Shown here one piece after another: positions 17,164 to 56,153 of a DNA stretch of 64,000 nt (positions are counted from its first letter, which is position 1; every line of letters begins with the position of its first letter). Below the pieces are notes generated by a model. It worked only from the letters and a program-made list of their open reading frames with translations, made no database searches and had not been told where the DNA came from. The position numbers were made by a program, and so were the translations under genes. Source of the DNA: Persicaria tinctoria (taxonomy: Eukaryota > Streptophyta > Magnoliopsida > Caryophyllales > Polygonaceae); the NCBI GenBank assembly GCA_037127255.1, contig JBANSL010000012.1, forward strand, positions 32,913,115 through 32,977,114, read 5' to 3'.

Positions 17164-18189
17164 TCCTCTTCACCCATCAAATTTTTTTGTCTTTTTTTAA
17201 TTATTTATTTACTTTAATTATTATGGTAAAGTGACCAGTGATCACCAATCATTAAGGTAAAGTTTTTACGATTTTTATCTTAACTTTTATTAATATAATA
17301 TATATTATTAATATTTTAGTTTTAAAAATTCACGTCATGATGCAGAAATTGTACTAGTTCATTATATATGAATACTATTTATATATTTATAAATATTTAA
17401 GGTTTACAATTACATCGCATCCCCTTATTTTTTAAGGTAACTAGAGGGATGCATTTTTTTAAGAATATTTTTTATGTTATTAATTTCACACACATACATA
17501 TATCCTTTAAAAACTATCCCTAAATGGCTTGATTTTAGGGAATGAATTAAATCACGTCGAGCTCGAAATCCCTCTTAAAAAGACTTAAAATAACTCCCGA
17601 ACTAAAGGGCTTGATTTCACAACTCCAAAAATCACGTATGGACTTGAAATCCCGCTCATTAGAGCCTATTAAATCCTATTAGGGCTTGATTGGTCCTTTC
17701 GACCTCCGTGGTGCGTTTTCGTTCGGGCGGCGTGCAGCTTTACTTAGGCGTGTCTAGGTGTTCTGTTTTTTCATTGTGGTTCTGGCAGTCGGGTTTGGTA
17801 CTGGCTGCGGTCGAGGTGGTGTGTACAAGGCGACTTCGTGATCGAGAAAGAGCTTTCGGGAGGTTTGTCTTCACTGCTCACATGGATTCCTGATGTATCG
17901 TTGACCAACGGTGCTATTTTTTAAGGGTGCTTGGCTTTGTCTGTAGTCTACGTCCCCAATGTGTTTAGATGTAGTTTGGCCAGATTCGTCTTCTGTAGAG
18001 TGTGTTTCTACTTATTTGTATTTTACCGTCTGCGAATTTATCGACCATCGAAATTCAGATATACCTAATTAAAAATAAATTTTCATGGATCACATTTGCA
18101 CCCATCAAAGTATTCCATTCTCATTTATTAACAAGTACACTTTTTTTTGTTGTGTGTTGCTATATACACCGCAAATCACAAGGTTAATA
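17164..18189. other. Intergenic sequence
   Basis: AT-rich to 17680, then a more GC-balanced stretch (17690-18000) of unknown origin, with no convincing frame. Confidence 0.4.
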
Positions 18190-18290
18190 TTGCACGTCCT
18201 TAAGGACGTGCAAGCCTTGTGTCTAATATTGCACGTCCTTAAGGACGTGCAAGCCTTTTAATCATGCACGTCCTTAAAGACGTGCATGAT
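18190..18290. repeat. Three clustered palindromes
   Basis: Two identical, perfect 24 bp palindromes (18190-18213 and 18229-18252; half-site TTGCACGTCCTT) are followed by a 30 bp palindrome (18261-18290; half-site ATCATGCACGTC) with one mismatched pair near its centre. Centres are 39 and 35 bp apart. All three share TGCACGTCCTTAA. The intervening sequence (AAGCCTT, TAATATT) also repeats. Confidence 0.95.
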
Positions 18291-18424
18291 TTGGGGTGTA
18301 TATAACCGGAACGTTTTTTTTTATCATCTACTAAATTTTATCTGCACTCAATTTTCAAAGGCATATACATTTTATTTTGTAAGTAACATGTGTAGTTTTC
18401 ACTTGTGTTACTGATATAATATAT

Positions 18425-18510: not shown

Positions 18511-18515
18511 GTTGT

Positions 18516-18658
18516 TGTGATAATAGATAGAATAGAGAGGAGAAGAAGGAAATGAACTGATGTATTATTGGGGTCTTCAGGACCCTTTATATAGGATTTT
18601 ACACAGGGAACTAGGGTTTCTAGTGTTTATCCATTCCTAATATAATAATATTATAACA
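18516..18658 (-). repeat. 3' LTR (143 bp)
   Basis: On the minus strand it runs TGTTATAA...TATCACA. It contains a TATA box (TATATAAAGGG, 18583-18593) and, directly beside it, a foldback GGGTC-TTCAG-GACCC (18571-18585) with the same core as the internal array. Confidence 0.95.
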
Positions 18659-18659
18659 C

Positions 18660-18671
18660 TCCCCCTTGGAT
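18660..18671 (-). promoter_or_regulatory. Polypurine tract
   Basis: The minus strand reads TCCAAGGGGGAG immediately before the 3' LTR, where plus-strand DNA synthesis would be primed. Confidence 0.75.
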
Positions 18672-18689
18672 AAACATCCCTAATAATAC

Positions 18690-19215
18690 AAAAATGTCAT
18701 ATTAAAAACCCCGCCTAGAAAACCCAATGGGACCAAAACTAGGACCAAGGAAAAAATACAAATGACATGTGATACGCTTTGGTGATACTGCCTCGTTAAA
18801 AACCTTGTCAGGAAAACCTGGTGGGACAAAACCTGACCGAAGGGAAAAAGAGTGCAGTGCGTATATACTCCCCCTGAATTCAACGCCCTTCTTGCAGTCT
18901 TCTCATTTGAGTAAGCTCTTTCAACTTCTTGATGGTGCTGACTGTATGAGCTGCATAGTCGAGTCTCAACATTTTCTTTGACGTGTGTAAGTTGAGATGT
19001 CTTCATACATTATAATTGACTTCGAATGCTTGACTTCCATTTGCTGGCGTTGAGCTGCTTTCAATGCACAAACATAAGGTACTTCAGAACCTAGTGTGCT
19101 TTTCATTGTTGATCAGGGTGATCCGTTGTATTAAATGGTGCATAAGTTGCCTCGTTAAAAACCTTAACTTGGAAAAACCCAATGGGATAAAAACCAAGAT
19201 CAAGGAAAAGAGTAC
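18690..19215 (-). repeat. Copia-type 3' non-coding module, duplicated
   Basis: Plus-strand words TGCCTCGTTAAAAACCTT, CCTGGTGGGACAAAACC and GGGAAAAAGAGTGCAG (18785-18855) recur in altered form at 19147-19215 (TGCCTCGTTAAAAACCTT, CCCAATGGGATAAAAACC, GGAAAAGAGTACAAC). A third, weaker copy (ATTAAAAACCCCGCC, CCAATGGGACCAAAACTAGG) lies at 18700-18750. I recall this module from the 3' ends of plant Copia elements; the copies show local duplication. The 108-residue minus frame through it is not a known protein. Confidence 0.6.
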
Positions 19216-19249
19216 AACATTGTATGGTACTACGGGACCTAATGCAATG

Positions 19250-22200
19250 TCACCATTTTCACAATTATAGGTACTTCAGGTACTCTTATAAGGATCTTTA
19301 CCCAATTGCATGTGACGGGACTTTGATATTAATGCTTCAGGCATTTTCAATCGATCTTTTTCATTTATATGTGTATGCAAGTAACACGTCCGTCATTTAC
19401 ATTTAGATCCAAAATTATATTCACTTCTGGTGAATAGATTCTACCTATAACCTTTTATAGGTATTTGTGCAATCAACTTGGCTTTATATTTTATTTTGTA
19501 TGAACACCCACTTAAAGCTAATTGATGTTGCACTTTTCGGTGTTGGAACTACAGGTCCAATGTCATCATGCTTAAAGAATCCATCTTGGCACGACTTGCT
19601 TCTTTCTAGCTCTTTAATTTACTATGATTTCGATGTCGACATCCATTTGTTTATTTGATGATCATCATATTCTCATAGGCTCTTTCCACTTCTGGGGAAT
19701 CGTATACCAAGAGCCTAGTGATCTCCAACACTTCTGGTGTACTTGAGAACCACTTGATATTCATTGAGTTGGAGTTACTTCTGGAACTTCCAAATGAGCT
19801 AGTATATGTGACTTTGTCACTTTCTTGGCTTTTAGTAAATGCTTTCAATTGCATATTTGATAAACCTTATAATCATTTCATTTATTGAACTTCTGGTTCA
19901 CTTGTATTTATCCGCGGATATGAAATGATAGAGAAGTTGCTTCCGTGCAATCCCTTTCTCAATTGTCTCATTTCCTCTCCCCCTAAATACCGAGCATTTG
20001 ATCACCATTATAAGCTCTAGGTATTTGATATCAATAAGGACTCAAACCTCATGTATCATCCAACTTCTTTGTGGTCTAATTGTAGTTCATTTGGGGGAGG
20101 TATATCTCGGAACATATGCTGCTTATTCAAAACCTTTGAATGACATGCTCTCTTCTAGAGATAATTAGGGAGATGTTATTGTGTCAAATTCGAAATGCAA
20201 ACATGCATGGGCCCATTTGACCAGCGACTCTTCTGGGTCGCCGTGAGCTACCTTATGCTCAACAATGTTTTTGATAACATTCTCTACCTTATGTTTCATA
20301 TGACCAAAGTGTTGAGGCATCTGTAATCTTGGAATTACACTGGTCTATGTGATAATGTTCCGTAGTTGTCTCATTGAATCCACTCAAGAGACATTAGAGA
20401 CTTTGCATTTACTTTGAATTTAGATGGTCATATTTTCGATTTTGCCAAGATGATAGACCATATATGTTCGGTCACCCTTATTGAGGATCTTCGGGTCCTA
20501 GGGTCTTCTTGTCCCTTTTAGTGGGTGTGTATGTGAATGTCAATGATCCCGCCCATCATCGTTTCACATGAATGACCGAATGCCACAAAGAAAAACATTT
20601 TATCATTAACTAACTTCTGGTTAGTGACAAGTTTCAATGGGATAAATGAGTGTCAAATAAACAATATATATACATTCTCACTCTGTAAGACTTGCTTCTG
20701 GCTAGTCATCTGAGATATTGGTGTTCAATACCATGTCAATTCATACATATGTGTCATTGTTATTTCGGGTAACAAGATCAATGCTCTTCTAGGGCTATAT
20801 GGTATTCATCATGGTTTTCCATTCAAGATTGTTTGAGAAAAATTCAGGTTTTGAAAATTGATTGACACTTATAAAACCATAATATTCAACCATTGAACCT
20901 TGTATATGGTGATCTATTTAATTTAGATGCCATTGAATGAGTATTGTCAGAACTTTCGTTGGTGTCATACTTCAGGTATGAGTCATTTATAATGTTCTTC
21001 AGGACATTTAGAATTAACCGTATAACAGACCTAGCTATAAGCCACAACAATAACTTTGGTCAAGCGCTTAACCATAACCTCTTTCACACCCTCTACCGGA
21101 GGGGCATGCTTCAGGCAATGCTTAGAGGATAGTCAGGAAGTGGCCTTCTTAACCGGATCGTGTTATGTGGTTACTTCTATTTGTTGTATCAACCAAACAA
21201 AAATAGTTCTGAATATAATAAAACCCACATTCCATGTACTTCTTCAGGAGTACAAATAATAAGATTGGAATCATATACTCTTCTAGAGTTTATAAGAATC
21301 ATATCATTCACTCTTCTGGAGTTTAATAAAAATCCACCATCAGAGTCTTCAGGCTCTTAGGTTTGTGTTGAAAAACTTCACAATCTACGGGATTGTGGTA
21401 AACCTTTCTCCCAAATGTTCATTTGCCAAACAAAACTCCGCATTAGAAACTCATGGTAAGTAGTTTCTTCGGGAAACACTTTGAGCTTTGAATTACAATA
21501 AGTAAAATCATAATAATTTTATTCAATATAAAGCAATGAATAAAAAACAAATAAATAAATAAAATAAAATTGCATTTGTCCACTTCAGGTGGAGCCATGA
21601 GAAAAAAACTTGTCAGTTTATCATTTTCTTCAAGAAAGGATTTAATTCATAAAATGATTCATTTGTCAACTTCGAGTGACAATTAGTCTCAATTATGTAT
21701 ATTTCGATCATATACTCCAAAAGATTATAAGTTGCATTTCAAAAATATAGTAAGTTGTCATATAAACATTGACCATATTCTTCAAGAAATGGTATGATCG
21801 ATTATTACTCACTTCAGGGAGAAGACAACTTGTATACATTCACTTTAATTTCTACACTTCTGGGTATTTGTGCAACTTTAAAATAAAACTCATACACTTC
21901 TGGGTATGATTTTAAATAATCTTTATGAGGATATACAATATATCTCTTATCATTCACTTACTTCAGAAAATGAATATTGTCACTTCAGGGACAAATTTGT
22001 ATTGATGAGAGAGAGATATTTTATGAATTTCCTTTTCACATATTTCTTCAGGAGATTATTATCGTTACTGCATGAACGATTTATGAGCATAATGTTTTCA
22101 TCCTCTTCAGGGGATGATTTTATTTATTTCGAGAGATAATGATAAATAAATAAATAGTTGATATACATAGTAAAACTATAAAATCATAAATAGATAAATA

Positions 22201-24175
22201 AAATAAAATTGGCATATTGTCAACTTCTGGTGACAAGAAAATGAACATCTGCAAATACATGTTCGTCTACTTCTGGAGACTGGTGGAGAAACCATAATTT
22301 GCTTGTTTAGCTATAAAAATCGTCGGTCCAGGGACGATTATAAATTTTAAAATTTTATCTACTACGGGAGATAAATTTGATCATGGTATATAAGCTAAAA
22401 TATTTATCTTCTTCAGGAGATAAATAAGAATTTCATCTTCTTCAAGAGATGTGATACATAAATTGTGTTTATTTTATCTACTTCAGGAGATAAACTACCA
22501 CGTTTGGGATGATATGCAAATTTAACAATTTATATCTACTTCGGGAGATAATGTTTGTCTACTTCTGGAGACAAGAAAATAAAATACAAATTGAAATGAA
22601 TAATAAAACTGAAAATAAAAAAAATTCATCACTACGGGGATGATTTTCAATCGTTCACATCTACTTCAGGAGATGGTTCGTTCATCTACTTCGGGAGATG
22701 AAGATTAAACAAATATAATTTAAATAAATTAAACTAAATAACATACATAAAAGTAAATAAACATAAATAATAAATATAATTTCATTACTACAGGGATGAG
22801 ATTTATCATTTCATCGATTCGGGGATGAGATCGATCAATTTATCATTCATCTACTTCGGGAGATGCGCTCATTCATCTACTTCGGGAGATGCGTTTGTTC
22901 ATCCACTTTAAGGGATACGAGGAATTGATTTAATCGCTTCAGGGATTAAAATTAATTTATCCACTTCGGAGGATTTTACAAATCAAATTTGATTCAACAA
23001 ATTAGTATCGGAATTGAATGGGGTCATGATTAATAGTACATACGGACATAGAGATTGAATTCAGAAAACCACCGAACAACCTTTATAGTTTATACGACAC
23101 CAAATTGAAAGGGCAAAAACAAATTCCACATCGATAGTTCTTCTTCACAGAAACTATTCCGATAGAAATCACATGAAGGATAATTAAAAAAACATAGATT
23201 AATTAATTCATGCGGGGCGGAGCAGCGTAATTGCATTTGAATGAAGAAGAACCACATAAGCCAAATAACAATTCCGAGTAAAAAAAACACGAATAGCATT
23301 AGATCAAATTGAACCAAGGGTATATTTAATTGTGCAATAAAACGAAATTGTCTACGCATGATATCCTTTAACAAACCGATCATCAAATTGATTAAACAAA
23401 TGCATAATCAATGGAGACATGTGTAACAAATTCACCAGCAAATAATTAAAGTAACAAAACAATTGTGTAACCGAGGAGAATCGATACATGCAATTGGTGG
23501 ATCTGAAATCAGTATGCCGAGTTTAACGATTCAATTTGTTCCAAAATTGCAAATAGTGATCGGTCGAATTTCATGATATAACAAATATAACATAGGTGCA
23601 TTAAAAAAAATAACATCCACTTCGCAGGATATGGTAGAATGGTAGATTAATCCAAACAGGGATATTTGACTTATTCAATCACTTCAAGGATTGAGATTAG
23701 TTTAATTATCCGCTTCAGGGAAATTCAATTGATTCGATCACTTCAGGGATTGGAATTATTTTATCCGCTTCAGGGGATACTACAAATTCGATTGATTCGA
23801 TCACTCCAGGGATTGAAATTATTTTATCCGCTTCAGGGGATACTACAAATTCGATTGATTCGATCACTTCAGGGATTGAAATTATTTTATCCGGGGATAC
23901 TACAACTTCGATTGATTCAATCACCTCGGGGATTGAAATTATTTTATCCGCTCTAATTAAGGGATACTGCAACTTCGATTGATTCAATCACTTCAGGGAT
24001 TGAAATTATTTTATCCGCTCCAGGGGATACTACAACTTCGATTGTTTCAATCACTTCAGGGATTGAAATTATTTTATCCACTCCAAGGATACTACAACAT
24101 CGATTGATTCAATCACTTCAGGGATTGAAAATAATGTTAATTGATCCGCTCCCGGAGATACAATTCATCTTTTAG
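19250..24175. repeat. Array of short foldbacks with constant core TTC(A/T/G)G and variable complementary arms
   Basis: More than forty units can be read by eye. Each has a core of (A/T)CTTCAGG, CTTCTGG or CTTCGGG flanked by arms complementary to each other but different from unit to unit. Examples: TATTCAC/GTGAATA at 19418-19436; TGTACT/AGTACA at 21235-21254; CACAATC/GATTGTG at 21379-21397; TTGTCA/TGACAA at 22217-22236; AATCGTC/GACGATT at 22318-22339; TATTTATCT/AGATAAATA at 22401-22426; TTCATCT/AGATGAA at 22681-22702; TTTAATC/GATTAAA at 22929-22950. Between 23690 and 24150 two alternating units (arms TTCAATC and TATCC) are amplified in a tandem block of about 70 bp period. No coding frame spans the array. 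Confidence 0.92.
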
Positions 24176-24331
24176 GAATGATATATATCCAAAAAGGGTA
24201 TACAAAATAAAATTCAACGTACAAAGTGATGAAATATAAAAAAATTGATCGGAGGCAGTATGTAGATGAATGCATGCATATCAGTTAATTTGTATACCTT
24301 CTCGGTCTCGATCTTTTTACCTTTTCTCTTT

Positions 24332-24353
24332 AGAGTCACTCGTGCTGATAACG
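24332..24353 (-). promoter_or_regulatory. Putative primer-binding region
   Basis: The minus strand just inside the 5' LTR reads CGTTATCAGCACGAGTGACT. Its position fits a tRNA primer-binding site. It is not the common initiator-Met sequence (TGGTATCAGAGC), and I cannot name the tRNA. Confidence 0.5.
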
Positions 24354-24495
24354 TGTGATAATAGATAGAATAGAGAGGAGAAGAAGGAAATGAACTGATG
24401 TATTATTGGGGTCTTCAGGACCCTTTATATAGGATTTTACACAGGGAACTAGGTTTCTAGTGTTTATCCATTCCTAATATAATAATATTATAACA
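24354..24495 (-). repeat. 5' LTR (142 bp)
   Basis: Identical to the other LTR except for one missing G in GGGTTTC. It carries the same foldback (24409-24423) and TATA box. Confidence 0.95.
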
Positions 24496-24500
24496 GTTGT

Positions 24501-27570: not shown

Positions 27571-28440
27571 GTGCAATTTTAGTTTGATAATGTGCATAAA
27601 TAAGGTGATAAAGTGCAAAAATAAAATGATGAAGTGCATGAATAATAATATGAAGTGCATGAATAAGATTATGAAGTGCATAATTAAGATTATAAAATGC
27701 ATAAATAAGATGATAAAGTGCAAGAATAAAATGATGAAGTGTGTGAATAATAATATGAAGTGCATGAATAAGAGTATGAAGTGCATAAATAAAATGATAA
27801 AATGCATGAATAATGCCCAAATAATATTATAAAGTGCACATTTTATAATTTGAAGTGCACAATTAATATTATAAAAGTGAAAGAATAATATTATAAAGTG
27901 CATAACTAATATCAATAAGTCTTTACTTCTACTTTTGATCAAATATAAAGTGAATAAATAACATTATAAAATGTAATATAATGTGCAATTTTAGTTTGAT
28001 AAAGTGCATAAATAAGGTGATAAAGTGCACGAATAAAATGATGAAGTGTATGAATAATAATATGAAGTGCGTGAATAAGATTATGAAGTGCACAATTAAG
28101 ATTATAAAATGCATAAATAAGATGATAAAGTGCAAGAATAAAATGATTAAGGGTATGAATAATAATATGAAGTGTATGAATAAGAGTATGAAGTGCACAA
28201 TTAAGATTATGAAGTGCATAAATAAAATGATAAAATGCACGAATAATGCCCAAATAATATTATAAAGTGCACATTTTATAATTTGAAGTGCACAATTAAT
28301 ATTATAAAACTGCAAGAATAATATTATAAAGTGCATAACTAATATCAATAAGTCTTTACTTCTACTTTTGATCAAATATAAAGTGAATAAATAAGATTAT
28401 AAAATGTATAAATAAAACTATAAATTGCATGAATAACACT
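27571..28440. repeat. 21-nt tandem array on GTGCA, duplicated as a 412 bp block
   Basis: Units such as GTGCATAAATAAGGTGATAA(A) and GTGCATGAATAAGATTATGA(A) follow at a strict 21 bp step. The whole block starting GTGCAATTTTAGTTTGATAA recurs 412 bp later (27571 and 27983). As 21 is divisible by three, long open frames appear on both strands (NKxxKCxNKMMKCMNN-type); these are artefacts. Confidence 0.9.
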
Positions 28441-28454
28441 CCAAATTGCATGAA

Positions 28455-28535
28455 TAGATCTAGGTGGAGTCGAACCACCAACCTCCTGAACAACAATTTG
28501 TCCAGACGCTCTTTCCAATTTGAGCTTATAGATCT
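28455..28535 (-). other. tRNA-like cloverleaf
   Basis: Minus strand, 81 nt: acceptor arm AGATCTA/TAGATCT (7 bp), D-arm GCTC/GAGC around AAATTGGAAA, anticodon-type arm CTGGAC/GTTCAG with an 8-nt loop, and T-arm GGTGG-TTCGACT-CCACC with an exact B box (GGTTCGACTCC). The anticodon loop is a base too long and lacks the usual purine after the anticodon, so I read a tRNA-derived, possibly Pol III-competent, pseudogene rather than a working tRNA. Confidence 0.65.
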
Positions 28536-49706: not shown

Positions 49707-49748
49707 GTCGATTAGGTTCTTCTATTTTAGCATGAAAATCATAATTTA

Positions 49749-49816
49749 GCCTATTAGCTCAATTGGTAGAGCAATGTGCGTTTGCACAAAGATGTGGGTT
49801 CAAATCCCACATAGGT
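49749..49816 (+). other. tRNA-like structure
   Basis: Plus strand: D-arm GCTC/GAGC around AATTGGTA, T-arm GTGGG-TTCAAAT-CCCAC, outer pairing CCTAT/ATAGG; near-perfect A box (TAGCTCAATTGG) and B box (GGTTCAAATCC). The anticodon arm folds as TGTGC/GCACA with a 4-nt loop, wrong for a tRNA. Probably a Pol III-competent tRNA-derived sequence. Confidence 0.6.
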
Positions 49817-49854
49817 TACATAATAGACAAGAGCGCAAAAATCGCAAATTGTTA

Positions 49855-50345
49855 ATCATGCACATTATAATCTTAGTTATGCACAATTGTATACTACTTC
49901 TGCACAATCCTATCTTACTTTTGCACAATTGTATTATTAGATATGCACAACATAATGTTACATTTGCAAAACATAGTGTTATATTTGCACAACTTAAAGT
50001 TGTATTTTGCACAATATAATGTTATATTCGCACAACATAATATTATATGTGCACAACGTAACATTATATTATTAGATATGCACAACATAATGTTACATTT
50101 GCAAAACATAGTGTTATATTTGCACAACTTAAAGTTACATTTGCACAATATAATGTTATATTCGCACAAGATAATATTATATGTGCACAACGTAACATTA
50201 TATTATTAGATATGCACAATATAATGTTACATTTGCAAAATATAGTGTTATATTTGCACAACTTAAAGTTATATTTGCACAATATAATGTTATATATGCA
50301 TTATATCATCTTATTTGTGCACATTATCATTTTATTATTGCACTT
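49855..50345. repeat. 21-nt tandem array on TGCAC, with a higher-order repeat
   Basis: Units such as TGCACAACATAATGTTACAT(T) follow at a 21-22 bp step, and a block of about 130 bp recurs nearly three times (ATTATTAGATATGCACAA at about 49931, 50068, 50202). Unit sequence is the complement of the 27571-28440 array (AAAGTGCA / TTGCAC), consistent with the same element family in the other orientation. Confidence 0.88.
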
Positions 50346-50398
50346 TATAATCTTATTCATGAACGGGAACACAAAAAAAGCAACAATAAATAGCTTAT

Positions 50399-51016: not shown

Positions 51017-51650
51017 TGAAGATGCCCGAAATATAAAATGATATTCCCAAATATCATAAATAGAACCTTATAAACATGAAAAGTGGGCGAATGCCGGTCA
51101 ATATAGAAACTCATGACGTACGCGGACGATAAACCGTCTACGAATCTCACAAGCAAGGCATGTGACACTTGGCATCCATGCCTCCCTCCCATATGTCACA
51201 AGGCATGTGACACTTGGCATCCATGCCTCCCTCCCATATGTCACAAGGCATGTGACACTTGACATCCATGCCTCCCTCCCACATGTCACGAGGCAAGTGA
51301 CACTTGGCGACGAGTTAACTTGCATGAAGGTGTGCTTGTACTATAAATAAGAAGGTGTAGCATAATTTGAAGGGGTCGGAAACTGGAATCTCAGAAGGCT
51401 TAGGCCGGATTCCCTGGCCATGAGCCCCCCTTTTTCAAGCGGGATTAGTCTCGGCTAGACCGACGTTCGATGGAGCCCCACCGGGAGGACGGTTGTCCGC
51501 GGGTGGCTTGAGCTCGGATCGGCACAGGTTCGGGTACGCCGACGGTAATTTTGTCGCGCGTCTCAGGTAAGCCCGATCGTCTGAGCTCGCCAGCGTGCAA
51601 CTTGATCCCGGAATCCGCCGACAAGGGATTCTTCAAAATGGGTTTCGTCA
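51017..51650 (+). repeat. 5' LTR
   Basis: 634 bp, with a TATA-like box (ACTATAAATAAG, about 51340) and three or four copies of a 47 bp repeat (ACATGTCA/ATATGTCA-type, CACTTGGCATCCATGCCTCC) at 51158-51310. Confidence 0.9.
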
Positions 51651-52204: not shown

Positions 52205-53290
52205 TTTTATTAAGTCCCAGGACGCAGAAGCTTGCTCCGCGTCGGGCATCCGGTGGACGCATGGAGTTCCCGGACTACACTTTAAGTACCAGGACGCAGG
52301 AGCTTGCTCCGCGTCGGGCATCCGGTGGACGCATTGAGCTCCCAGACTACACTTTAAGTCCTAGGACGCAGGAGCTTGCTCCGCGTCGGGCATCCGGTGG
52401 ACGCATGGAGCTCCCGGACTACACTTTAAGTCCCAGGACGCAGGAGCTTGCTCCGCGTCGGGCATCCGGTGGACGCATGGAGCTCCCGGACTACACTTTA
52501 AGTCCCAGGACGCAGGAGCTTGCTCCGCGTCGGGCATCCGGTGGACGCATTGATCTCCCGGACTACACTTTAAGTCCCAGGACGCAGGAGCTTGCTCCGC
52601 GTCGGGCATCCGGTGGACGCATGGTGCTCCCGGACTACACTTTAAGTCCCAGGACGCAGGAGCTTGCTCCGCGTCGGGCATCCGGTGGACGCATGGAGCT
52701 CCCGGACTACACTTTAAGTCCCAGGACGCAGGAGCTTGCTCCACGTCGGGCATCCGGTGGACGCATAGAGCTCCCGGACTACACTTTAAGTCCCAGGACG
52801 CAGGAGCTTGCTCCGCGTCGGGCATCCGGTGGACGCATGGAGCTCCCGGACTACACTTTAAGTCCAAGGACGCAGGAGCTTGCTCCGCGTCGGGCATCCG
52901 GTGGACGCATGGAGCTCTCAGACTACACTTTAAGTCCCAGGACGCAGGAGCTTGCTCCGCGTCGGGCATCCGGTGGACGCATGGAGCTCTTGGACTACAC
53001 TTTAAGTCCCAGGACGCAGGAGCTTGCTCCGCGTCGGGCATCCGGTGGACGCATGGAGCTCCCGGACTACACTTTAAGTCCCAGGACGCAGGAGCTTGCT
53101 CCGCGTCGGGCATCCGGTGGACGCATGAAGATCCCGGACTACACTTTAAGTCACAGGACGCGGGAGCTTGCTCCGCGTCGGGCATCTGGTGGACGCATTG
53201 AGCTCCCGGACTACACTTTTAGTCCCAGGACGCTGGAGCTTGCTCCGCGACGGGCATCTGGTTGACGCATTGAGCTCCCGGACTATACTT
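52205..53290. repeat. 72 bp satellite array, about 15 copies
   Basis: The unit is GGACGCAGGAGCTTGCTCCG, CGTCGGGCATCCGGTGGACG, CATGGAGCTCCCGGACTACA, CTTTAAGTCCCA. Copies are nearly identical in the middle and drift at the right. 72 bp is 24 codons, so both strands stay open: a 367-residue plus-strand frame (repeat DYTLSPRTQELAPRRASGGR) and a 274-residue minus-strand frame. Confidence 0.95.
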
Positions 53291-54030
53291 TGTCTTTAAG
53301 TCCCAGGACGCAGGATCTTGCTCCGCGTCGGGCATCCGGTCGTAGGGCAAGCCTCCCGGATCAGATATTTTATTAAGCCCCTTAACGCGTGATCTCGCTC
53401 CGCGTCGGGCATCCGGTCGTAGAGCTAGCCTCCCGGATCAGATATTTTATTAAGCCCCTTAAACGCGTGATCTCGCTCCGCGTCGGGCATCCGGTCGTAG
53501 AGCAAGCCTCCCGGATCAGATATTTTATTAAGCTCCTTAACGCGTGATCTCGCTCCGCGTCGGGCATCCGGTCGTAGAGCAAGCCTCCCGGATCAGATAT
53601 TTTATTAAGCCCCTTAACGCGTGATCTCGCTCCGCGTCGGGCATCCGGTCGTAGAGCAAGCCTCCCGGATCAGAAATTTTATTAAGCCCCTTAACGCGTG
53701 ATCTCGCTCCGCGTCGGGCATCCGGTCGTAGAGCAAGCCTCCCGGATCAGATATATTATTAAGCCCCTTAACGCGTGATCTCGCTCCGCGTCGGGCATCC
53801 GGTCGTAGAGCAAGGCTCCCGGATCAGATATTTTATTAAGCCCCTTAACGCGTGATCTCGCTCCGCGTCGGGCATCTGGTCGTAGAGCTAGCCTCCCGGA
53901 TCAGATATTCTATTAAGCCCCTTAACGCGTGATCTCGCTCCGCGTCGGGCATCCGGTCGTAGAGAAAGCCTCCTGGATCAGATATTTTATTAAGCCCCTT
54001 AACGCGTGATATCGCTCCGCGTCGGGCATC
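53291..54030. repeat. 77 bp satellite array, about nine copies
   Basis: The unit GTCGTAGAGCAAGCCTCCCG, GATCAGATATTTTATTAAGC, CCCTTAACGCGTGATCTCGC ends in TCCGCGTCGGGCATCCG, a core shared with the preceding 72 bp array. Confidence 0.93.
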
Positions 54031-54033
54031 CAA

Positions 54034-54106
54034 TCGTCTGAGCTCGCCAGCGTGCAACTTGATCCCAGAATCCGCCGACAAGGGATTCTTCAAAAACGGG
54101 TTTCGT
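54034..54106 (+). repeat. Stray copy of the LTR 3' end between satellite arrays
   Basis: ATCGTCTGAGCTCGCCAGCG, TGCAACTTGATCCCAGAATC, CGACAAGGGATTC and GGGTTTCGTCA equal the last 75 bp of the LTRs (51576-51650 and 56079-56153), followed by CTGGCATCCGG. An LTR end has been copied into the array. Confidence 0.9.
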
Positions 54107-54430
54107 CACTGGCATCCGGTCGTAGCATGAGCCTCCCGGATCGAATATTATATAAGTCCTAGGACGCTGGAGCTTGCTCCGCGTCGGGCATCCGGTCGTA
54201 GCATGAGCCTCCCGGATCGAATATTATATAAGTCCCAGTACGCTGGAGCTTGCTCCACGTCGGGCATCTGGTCGTAGCATGAGCCTCCCGGATCGAATAT
54301 TATATAAGTCCCAGGACGCTGGAGCTTGCTCCGCATCGGGCATCCGGTCGTAGCATGACCCTCCCGGATCGAATATTATATAGGTCCCAGGACGATGGAG
54401 CTTGATCCGCGACGGGCATCTGGTCATAGA
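54107..54430. repeat. 76 bp satellite array, four copies
   Basis: The unit GCATCCGGTCGTAGCATGAG, CCTCCCGGATCGAATATTAT, ATAAGTCCCAGGACGCTGGA mixes features of the 77 bp and 72 bp units. Confidence 0.9.
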
Positions 54431-54449
54431 ACTTGTCTCCCAGATAGGA

Positions 54450-55390
54450 AATATAAACGAAGTCCCTCTCGAGTGACAGAGGGCCTCCGCAGGTAGCTTT
54501 ATAAGCTCGCGGAGATAACTCTTAAACGAGTATAAACGAAGTCCCTCTCAAGTCACAGAGGGCCTCTGCTGGTAGCTTTGTAAGCTCGCGGAGATAACTC
54601 TTAAACGAGTATAAACGAAGTCCCTCTCAAATGACAGAGGGCCTCCGCTGGTAGCTTTGAAAGCTCGCGGAGATAACTCTTAAACGAGTATAAACGAAGT
54701 CCCTCTCTAGTGATAGAGGGCCTCCGCTGGTAGCTTTGTAAGCTCGCGGAGATAACTCTTAAACGAGTATAAATGAAGTCCCTCTCAAGTGACAGAGGGC
54801 CTCCGCTGGTAGCTTTGTAATCTCGCGGAGATAACTCTTAAACGAATATAAACGAAGTCCCTCTCAAGTGACAGAGGGCCTCCGCTGGTAGCTTTGAAAG
54901 CTCGCGGAGATAACTCTTAAACGAGTATAAACGAAGTCCCTTTCTAGTGATAGAGGGCCTCCGCAGGTAGCTTTGTAAGCTCGCGGAGATAACTCTTAAA
55001 CGAGTATAAACGAAGTCCCTCTCAAGTGACAGAGGGCCTCCGCTGGTAGCTTTGAAAGCTCGCGGAGATAACTCTTAAACGAGTATAAACGAAGTCCCTC
55101 TCTAGTGATAGAGGGCCTCCGCTGGTAGCTTTGTAAGCTCGCGGATATAACTCTTAAACGAGTATAAACGAAGTCCCTCTCAAGTGACAGAGGGCCTCCG
55201 CTAGTAGCATTGAAAGCTCGCGGAGATAACTCTTAAACGAGTATAAACGAAGTCCCTCTCTAGTGATAGAGGGCCTCCGCTGGTAGCTTTGAAAGCTCGC
55301 GGAGATAACTCTTAAACGAGTATAACTTAAGTCCCTCTCGAGTGACAGAGGGCCTCCGTTGGTAACTTTGTAAGATCACGGAAATAAAAC
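54450..55390. repeat. 78 bp satellite array, about 12 copies
   Basis: The unit AACGAAGTCCCTCTCAAGTG, ACAGAGGGCCTCCGCTGGTA, GCTTTGTAAGCTCGCGGAGA, TAACTCTTAAACGAGTAT. Each copy holds three possible stems: CCCTCT/AGAGGG, CTCCGC/GCGGAG, and CTCTTAAACGAG. Alternating units (CAAGTGACAG, then TAGTGATAG) suggest a dimeric higher-order repeat over part of the array. Confidence 0.93.
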
Positions 55391-55493: not shown

Positions 55494-56153
55494 TGATGAT
55501 GCCCGAAATATAAAATGATATTCACAAATATCATAAATAAATAAGGTTCCCCGCTATATAAATAGAACCTTATAAACATGAAAAGTGGGCGAATGCCGGT
55601 CAATATAGAAACTCATGACATACGCGGATGATAAACCGTCTACGACTCTGACAAGCAAGGCATGTGACACTTGGCATCCATGCCTCCCTCCCATATGTCA
55701 CAAGGCATGTGACACTTGGCATCCATGCCTCCCTCCCATATGTCACAAGGCATTTGACACTTGGCATCCATGCCTCCCTCCCACATGTCACGAGGCAAGT
55801 GACACTTGGCGACGAGTTAACTTGCATGAAGGTGTGCTTGTACTATAAATAAGAAGGTGTAGCATAATTTGAAGGGGTCGGAAACTGGAATCTCAGAAGG
55901 CTTAGGCCGGATTCCCTGGCCATGAGCCCCCCTTTTTCAAGCGGGATTAGTCTCGGCTAGACCGACGTTCGATGGAGCCCCACCGGGAGGACGGTTGTCC
56001 GCGGGTAGCTTGAGCTCGGATCGGCACAGGTTCGGGTACGCCGACGGTAATTTTGTCGCGCGTCTCAGGTAAGCCCGATCGTCTGAGCTCGCCAGCGTGC
56101 AACTTGATCCCGGAATCCGCCGACAAGGGATTCTTCAAAAACGGGTTTCGTCA
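55494..56153 (+). repeat. 3' LTR
   Basis: 660 bp, very close to the 5' LTR, with the same TATA-like box and 47 bp repeats, plus a 26 bp segment missing from the 5' copy. Confidence 0.9.

Follow-up and report, generated by a model that had tools for sequence, protein, structure and literature searches.

Loop-constant hairpins in a non-coding LTR element of Persicaria tinctoria and its Ty1/copia relatives as candidate packaging signals

Large retrotransposon derivatives (LARDs) and terminal-repeat retrotransposons in miniature (TRIMs) have long terminal repeats (LTRs), a primer site, and a polypurine tract but encode no proteins, and their mobilisation is presumed to occur in trans. The recognition and movement of non-coding LTR elements by the proteins of other elements is an open question. 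Here, we describe a non-autonomous LTR element (18516..24495, with the minus strand as sense strand) from a 64,000-nucleotide stretch of the Persicaria tinctoria genome (contig JBANSL010000012.1; this entire stretch is referred to as the window). It has the listed features in common with LARDs and TRIMs. It differs from them in its hairpin-bearing body, which is derived from gag-pol; no such body is mentioned in the available portions of the literature on LARDs and TRIMs.

A primer binding site for half-tRNA-Ile is a feature of the Ty1/copia lineage Bianca, according to the accessible part of PMC6317226. Like Bianca, the window element and the loci of its relative groups A, B1, and C have CGTTATCAGCACGA, and a relative sharing its LTR codes for an RVT_2 domain. 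Unlike Bianca, the window element is non-coding, and the accessible part of that article mentions no hairpin system. Many dispersed recognition sites per genome have been described for single-stranded RNA viruses and for hepatitis B virus (PMC7612645, PMC7793301, PMC3593212, each in its accessible part). Those of hepatitis B virus resemble the hairpins reported here in being stem-loops with a shared loop motif. The present case differs from these viral signals in that it concerns a plant LTR retrotransposon, that the hairpins are amplified in a non-coding derivative, and that protein binding is something we infer. For mouse mammary tumour virus (MMTV), the accessible part of PMC8096270 reports that Gag binds a purine loop. 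This site is similar in its purine-rich loop and in its position in the leader near the primer site, but it is a single leader structure, whereas the P. tinctoria element has tens of copies over the whole RNA. In the accessible parts of the literature on non-coding LTR elements, Bianca, packaging, and stem-loops, no description of such hairpins was found. A paper on enod40 (PMC10578108) treats a different matter in its accessible text.

The element body was scanned for cores only (pattern C[TC][TA]CN[GA]G), ignoring the arms. This returned 60 cores, compared to 5.9 expected from the core density of the remaining window. The perfect run between the two arms of a core has a mean length of 4.52 bp, versus 1.42 bp when the 3' arms are permuted among the units (maximum 1.9 bp in 2000 permutations); for the 59 of 60 background cores which could be scored, the mean is 1.15 bp. 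When the 63-bp tandem array of the leader is excluded, 51 cores remain, with a mean of 4.43 bp versus 1.36 bp permuted. At least four Watson–Crick pairs are formed at 48 of the 60 cores, some of these stems having one or two mismatches. Paired stems of at least 3 bp number 53 in the body. The first-pass annotation, which had described foldbacks with a fixed core and co-varying arms, is thus borne out in its central claim that the arms stay complementary, and the 14 foldbacks which it listed (12 in the body, two in the LTRs) are all present where it placed them, with perfectly complementary arms. Its statement that the arms differ in nearly every unit is correct insofar as pairing with the own arm far exceeds pairing after permutation, but local families and the 63-bp tandem array have arms in common. 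Inverted repeats with any loop and arms of at least 6 bp show a moderate rise (44, where 15 shuffles gave 25 on average and 35 at most), and the excess sits in the constant-core class. The sliding-window folding energy of 19200-23000 (z of -6.5 on the plus and -4.8 on the minus strand) was not used as evidence; one control region reached -4.1 and -2.5. Because the primer site, the polypurine tract, and the pol homology all point to the minus strand as sense strand, the loop reads CCNGAAG in the RNA.

Relatives were collected from the genome of P. tinctoria (1.68 Gb). Among 708 LTR candidates, 40 were scored and 20 stretches were taken; for 12 of these, the alignment to the element exceeds 1 kb, with a sequence identity of at least 85%. 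Nine of these 12 copies were counted; L177 and L185 are partial, and L181 was treated as a duplicate because it shares its 5' flank with L186. These two loci, whose bodies diverge by 1.3%, are probably copies of one duplicated stretch of the genome and not separate insertions. The LTR-sharing locus L174/L175 (92% LTR identity) codes for a Ty1/copia reverse transcriptase (RVT_2, PF07727) in a broken frame. A search with this reverse transcriptase, in which 136 of 28,232 candidates were scored, provided body stretches of three group A loci (about 90% protein sequence identity), three B1 loci (78%), and two C loci (65-67%). Further leaders and pol segments included four B2 copies (74-75%). A copia-type gag and a zinc knuckle are found in A and B1, and more weakly in C. 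When 23 pol segments were placed in a tree, C was set off by a long branch with full support, and A and B1 were joined against B2 and C (0.975); the tree must be rooted at C for A, B1, and B2 to be a clade. The poorly alignable L201 and L210 were left out of this tree and of the between-group pair comparison.

Sense-strand hairpins with a CCNGAAG loop and variable, self-complementary arms are present in gag and pol of A, B1, and B2 elements, so that the hairpins are not an invention of the non-coding element. When lax cores are counted over whole 5.75-kb stretches, the sense/antisense numbers are 31/9, 27/5, and 29/9 in group A, 36/4, 34/6, and 34/6 in B1, and 14/10 and 14/11 in the two C loci; those of the window element are 62/3. 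Paired stems of at least 3 bp number 14 in L187 and 9 in L195 for the group A pair, and 20-21 in the B1 loci. As a null model, synonymous codons were shuffled while the protein was kept. The three A and three B1 loci have intact pol frames with 16-18 strict cores, against 4.2-6.1 in the null; stems of at least 4 bp number 6-8 there, against 0.2-0.3, and none of 500 shuffles reached this stem number. In the 1.95-kb pol segments of the four B2 copies, the stems also exceed the null (0 of 300 shuffles), but the cores alone do not (reached by 21-101 of 300). In the gag frames, stems of at least 3 bp number 5 and 3 in B1 and 2 in B2 (0 of 300 shuffles each), 2 in A (1 of 300), and 0 and 0 in C. The cores could also result from protein motifs in pol, where Pro-Glu is encoded by CCN GAA, and have passed from there into the dead copy; several cores do encode Pro-Glu (e.g., IPEGF and GPEVP in the L174 frames). 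As a sufficient cause this is refuted, and we give it hardly any credence: codon shuffles which keep the protein yield the few stems stated above, and 35 of the 60 cores of the window element sit in the leader.

The leaders of the coding relatives contain hairpins as well. In the group A leader L195, a 63-bp array which lies past the primer site and before gag has 13 cores, nine of them with arms of at least 3 bp; the leader of the window element shares this 63-bp design (23706..24130). Hairpin arrays are also present in B1 leaders. Two C leaders have the same primer site as the window element but 1 and 0 cores. Six further C pol segments hold 0-2 stems of at least 3 bp, although in several rows even these few stems exceed a tiny null. 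One C stem, GTC-CCTGAAG-GAC, is found at the site of an A/B hairpin and has a compensated pair. The hairpin system may thus be of earlier origin, with an expansion in A and B.

Retention of the stems can be followed from coding elements into the decayed window copy, which has 76% identity to group A at aligned bases. All pairs are kept in 10 of 13 alignable coding hairpins of group A, versus 7 of 31 chance hairpins (Fisher P 0.0016, uncorrected for relatedness). Counted by pairs, 42 of 49 are unchanged from A to the window element, versus 67 of 128 in the control (Fisher P 3e-5, likewise uncorrected). In the reverse direction, from the window element to A, 8 of 12 hairpins are intact (chance 11 of 53), and from B1 to the window element 7 of 9 (chance 5 of 32). 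Within the non-coding family of nine copies, stem sites differ at 0.037 and spacers at 0.066, the stem value being lower than that of all 97 shifted masks, and 63 of 1404 pair cells are changed versus 188 of 1703 in control stems, which were not freed of overlaps.

The other nine copies have perfect 5-bp target duplications in every case, and 0-2 LTR substitutions in eight of them (six in L186); the family has recently been mobile. With LTR pairs nearly identical and target duplications perfect, nearly all divergence within the family predates insertion and therefore reflects copies which succeeded in moving. For the same reason, decay by cytosine methylation after insertion was dropped as a cause of core variation.

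The first-pass annotation had offered two origins for the foldbacks, a recognised loop with a structure under selection, or snap-back of reverse transcriptase seeded by the LTR hairpin. The first is favoured by the codon-null excess in intact relatives, the retention in the dead copy, and the low stem diversity. Selection on the hairpins is well supported; here the retained stems and the codon-null excess weigh more than covariation does. Snap-back is not supported: aligned sites are inherited in collinear order, the arrays grow through tandem duplication of the 63-bp two-hairpin unit which a group A leader also has, and no paired core occurs in the scanned LTR stretches of A and B1 loci. A more general mutational origin, with template switching or quasipalindrome correction making and repairing arms without functional selection, would account for perfect arms, local families, and the evident tandem growth. 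It leaves unexplained the recurring loop, the orientation on one strand, the codon-null excess in intact genes, and the retention at aligned sites of the dead copy, is thus largely refuted, and seems to us very improbable.

A non-coding element would be selectable only for cis functions, that is, transcription, packaging, priming, reverse transcription, and integration. We see roughly an even chance that the hairpins act in cis as dispersed sites at which the genomic RNA is recognised, the most likely reader being Gag of the autonomous relatives, with a function in packaging or assembly; the role of Gag is what we infer from the arrangement. The sense RNA has tens of like loops, which crowd the stretch from primer site to gag and recur along the rest of the element's genome; this corresponds to the anatomy of dispersed packaging signals. 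Multiple stem-loops with one loop motif were found across the genome of the element, and they are conserved among variants, except to group C. Under this proposal, Gag of A/B relatives would read CCNGAAG loops on genomic RNA, the hairpins acting as dispersed packaging or assembly signals, and a non-coding RNA with about 60 hairpin cores could be taken up and reverse transcribed in trans. The non-coding derivative no longer encodes the proteins but retains these hairpins and bears many more in its leader; with about twice as many paired hairpins, it might be favoured as a parasite. The full scenario, which we advance tentatively and rate somewhat short of an even chance, is that of a plant LTR retrotransposon group with about 20 paired loop-constant hairpins over gag-pol and leader, in which a non-coding parasite kept and roughly doubled the set while its genes decayed, so that parasite and helper compete via hairpin number.

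Several observations weigh against this proposal or against the selection on which it builds. Compensated double changes do exist (AATG/CATT versus AATA/TATT, TGAA/TTCA versus CGAA/TTCG, ACA/TGT versus ACG/CGT), but they are few: the non-coding family has two compensated pair types (control 1). The compensated among changed pairs are 3 of 7 from A to the window element (control 8 of 61), 2 of 4 from A to B1 (5 of 80), 3 of 9 from A to B2 (9 of 98), 0 of 10 from B1 to B2 (3 of 84), 4 of 14 from A to C (5 of 101), and 4 of 14 from B1 to C (3 of 96). Much of the evidence therefore consists of stem conservation. Relative to C, A and B1 stems change as often as controls (52% versus 50%). Taken over all its positions, the core (0.064) is no better conserved than the spacers of the non-coding family. 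Its first three positions on the plus strand are conserved (0.020-0.032), and the rest (0.067-0.138) is as variable as spacers or more so; in this family comparison, the loop constraint is mainly on CTT (AAG in sense orientation). Among the leaders, the second group A stretch, L196, is without primer site and array, and neither core nor primer site is present in about 1.1 kb upstream of the B2 gag of L220. An RG-rich tract in Gag is found in A, B1, and B2 and is missing from two C Gags, yet it occurs in 119 of 120 homologues among the matches listed, many from named angiosperms; it is therefore not specific to hairpin bearers and is at best a hint. The search for Gag homologues gave 1280 at an E value of 1e-5. 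The comparison of Gag among the groups was made without L219 and L221, in which no gag frame reaches 120 amino acids. Wobble counts single out neither strand, with 12 G-T versus 3 A-C on the plus strand in one count, several of them dubious, and 13 versus 13 types in another.

These wobble counts fit RNA and complementary DNA (cDNA) alike. Selected hairpins might accordingly be recognised by reverse transcriptase or integrase, or act in single-stranded cDNA (e.g., in pausing, strand transfer, or protection) instead of in packaging by Gag. By prediction, the stems pair about as well or better on the antisense strand (sense/antisense 0.66/0.60 for the window element, 0.70/0.76 for L187, 0.64/0.84 for the L195 leader, and 0.65/0.68 for L190), which is compatible with a cDNA stage. 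However, the dense arrays from primer site to gag in A and B1 loci better fit a packaging region, and it is not obvious what dispersed copies would contribute to strand transfer; we consider action at the cDNA stage unlikely. A constant loop on a variable stem is a usual design for recognition by a protein. The non-coding element has retained this design, as would be expected if a host RNA-binding protein recognised the hairpins for export, stabilisation, localisation, or hiding of the RNA. A host factor is harder to reconcile with group C, which shares the genome and the primer site but has few hairpins, and we regard this explanation as rather improbable.

If recognition by Gag is confirmed, LTR retrotransposons would have a dispersed packaging code, an RNA-structure code laid over retrotransposon coding sequence, and it could be explained in general terms why particular LTR elements without proteins are mobilised. 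The hairpins are a concrete, repeated, and testable signal in both the likely helper and the parasite, and group C provides a natural near-negative control within the same genome.

As to the structure of the window element, paired LTRs, a 5-bp target duplication, a primer site, and a polypurine tract identify it as an LTR retrotransposon. The target duplication GTTGT is at 18511-18515 and 24496-24500. The 5' LTR (24354..24495, 142 bp) and the 3' LTR (18516..18658, 143 bp), both on the minus strand, differ by one gap and by 0 of 142 substitutions. Next to the 5' LTR is the primer site CGTTATCAGCACGAGT (24338..24353, minus strand), which by its sequence would match the anticodon region of tRNA-Ile in complement, as for a half-tRNA primer, and we take it that this site pairs with tRNA-Ile itself. 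The sequence CGTTATCAGCACGA is common to the element and its relatives L195, L197, L222, L199, and L200. The polypurine tract CCAAGGGGGAG (18659..18669, minus strand) adjoins the 3' LTR, and GGGGGAG immediately ahead of TGTTA is found in L187-L189 (group A) and in L191 and L192 (B1) as well.

The element is collinear with group A through leader, gag, pol, and 3' domain, with main matches of 61-86% identity, a relation which the first-pass annotation had missed by not recognising the body as decayed gag-pol. Homology to the group A locus L187 on the minus strand comprises decayed gag (21077..21566; BLASTn matches at 21437-21566 with 65% and 21077-21256 with 61%) and decayed, collinear pol (19067..20930), which together hold 25 of the 60 cores. 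The cores of the leader lie in its expanded form (21567..24160, minus strand), of which 23519-24160 aligns with 71% identity to the leader array of L195 and contains the 63-bp direct repeats detected by Tandem Repeats Finder, with two hairpins per unit. Intact gag and pol are absent from the body: its longest listed frame has 108 amino acids and no Pfam match, only decayed pol stretches being found, and a protein search with this antisense frame gave no match. By its sequence, we classify the element as a non-autonomous, decayed gag-pol derivative of Ty1/copia, of Bianca type as judged from the half-tRNA-Ile primer site.

Individual hairpins on the minus strand (given here as plus-strand sequence) illustrate the correspondence with relatives. 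AATG-CTTCAGG-CATT (19331..19345) corresponds to AATA..TATT in A and to AATG..CATT in B1, and TGAA-CTTCTGG-TTCA (19886..19900) to CGAA/TTCG in A, with a compensated pair. ACTAAC-TTCTG-GTTAGT (20609..20625) has as positional counterpart CTAA-CCAGAAG-TTAG at 1875 in L188 and L189, a correspondence drawn from the collinear alignment. A 9-bp hairpin, TATTTATCT/AGATAAATA, is located in the leader (22401..22426). The LTR hairpin GGGTC-TTCAG-GACCC, beside the TATA box, occurs at 18571..18585 in the 3' LTR and at 24409..24423 in the 5' LTR; it is unstable even among close LTR relatives, with the stem broken in L174 and a different loop in L175.

The 3' non-coding conserved domain (18659..19216, minus strand) is common to A and B1 elements and contains no cores. 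It has repeated CCTCGTTAAAAACC and AAAACC blocks, and its matched parts are 71-90% identical to those of autonomous relatives; it is possibly a second cis signal. A 16-base piece of this domain gave no match in full-text literature. The same piece occurs in viral contigs (40 stretches) and in prokaryote genomes (at least 118 stretches), which we attribute to chance words, as BLASTn against the element revealed no homology in 158 records. The plasmid and phage collections gave no match, and no relatives of the reverse transcriptase were found in the viral contigs searched.

Just outside the element, at 18183-18292, are three tandem copies of a 34-nt unit (two identical, one 82%) with the palindrome TTGCACGTCCTTAAGGACGTGCAA, a different foldback array. 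Elsewhere in the window, long tandem arrays with periods of 72, 77, 76, and 79 bp (52210-55387) have matching arrays of a 45-bp repeat on either side (51154-51308 and 55656-55810). Two further arrays (27585-28456 and 49880-50356) show a 21-bp periodicity with longer units. A search of the whole window with Rfam 15 at gathering score gave two tRNA matches, none of them inside the element. One is a tRNA-like gene at 49748-49819 (54 bits), to which ARAGORN gave no assignment (two-base anticodon); the second is at 28455-28535.

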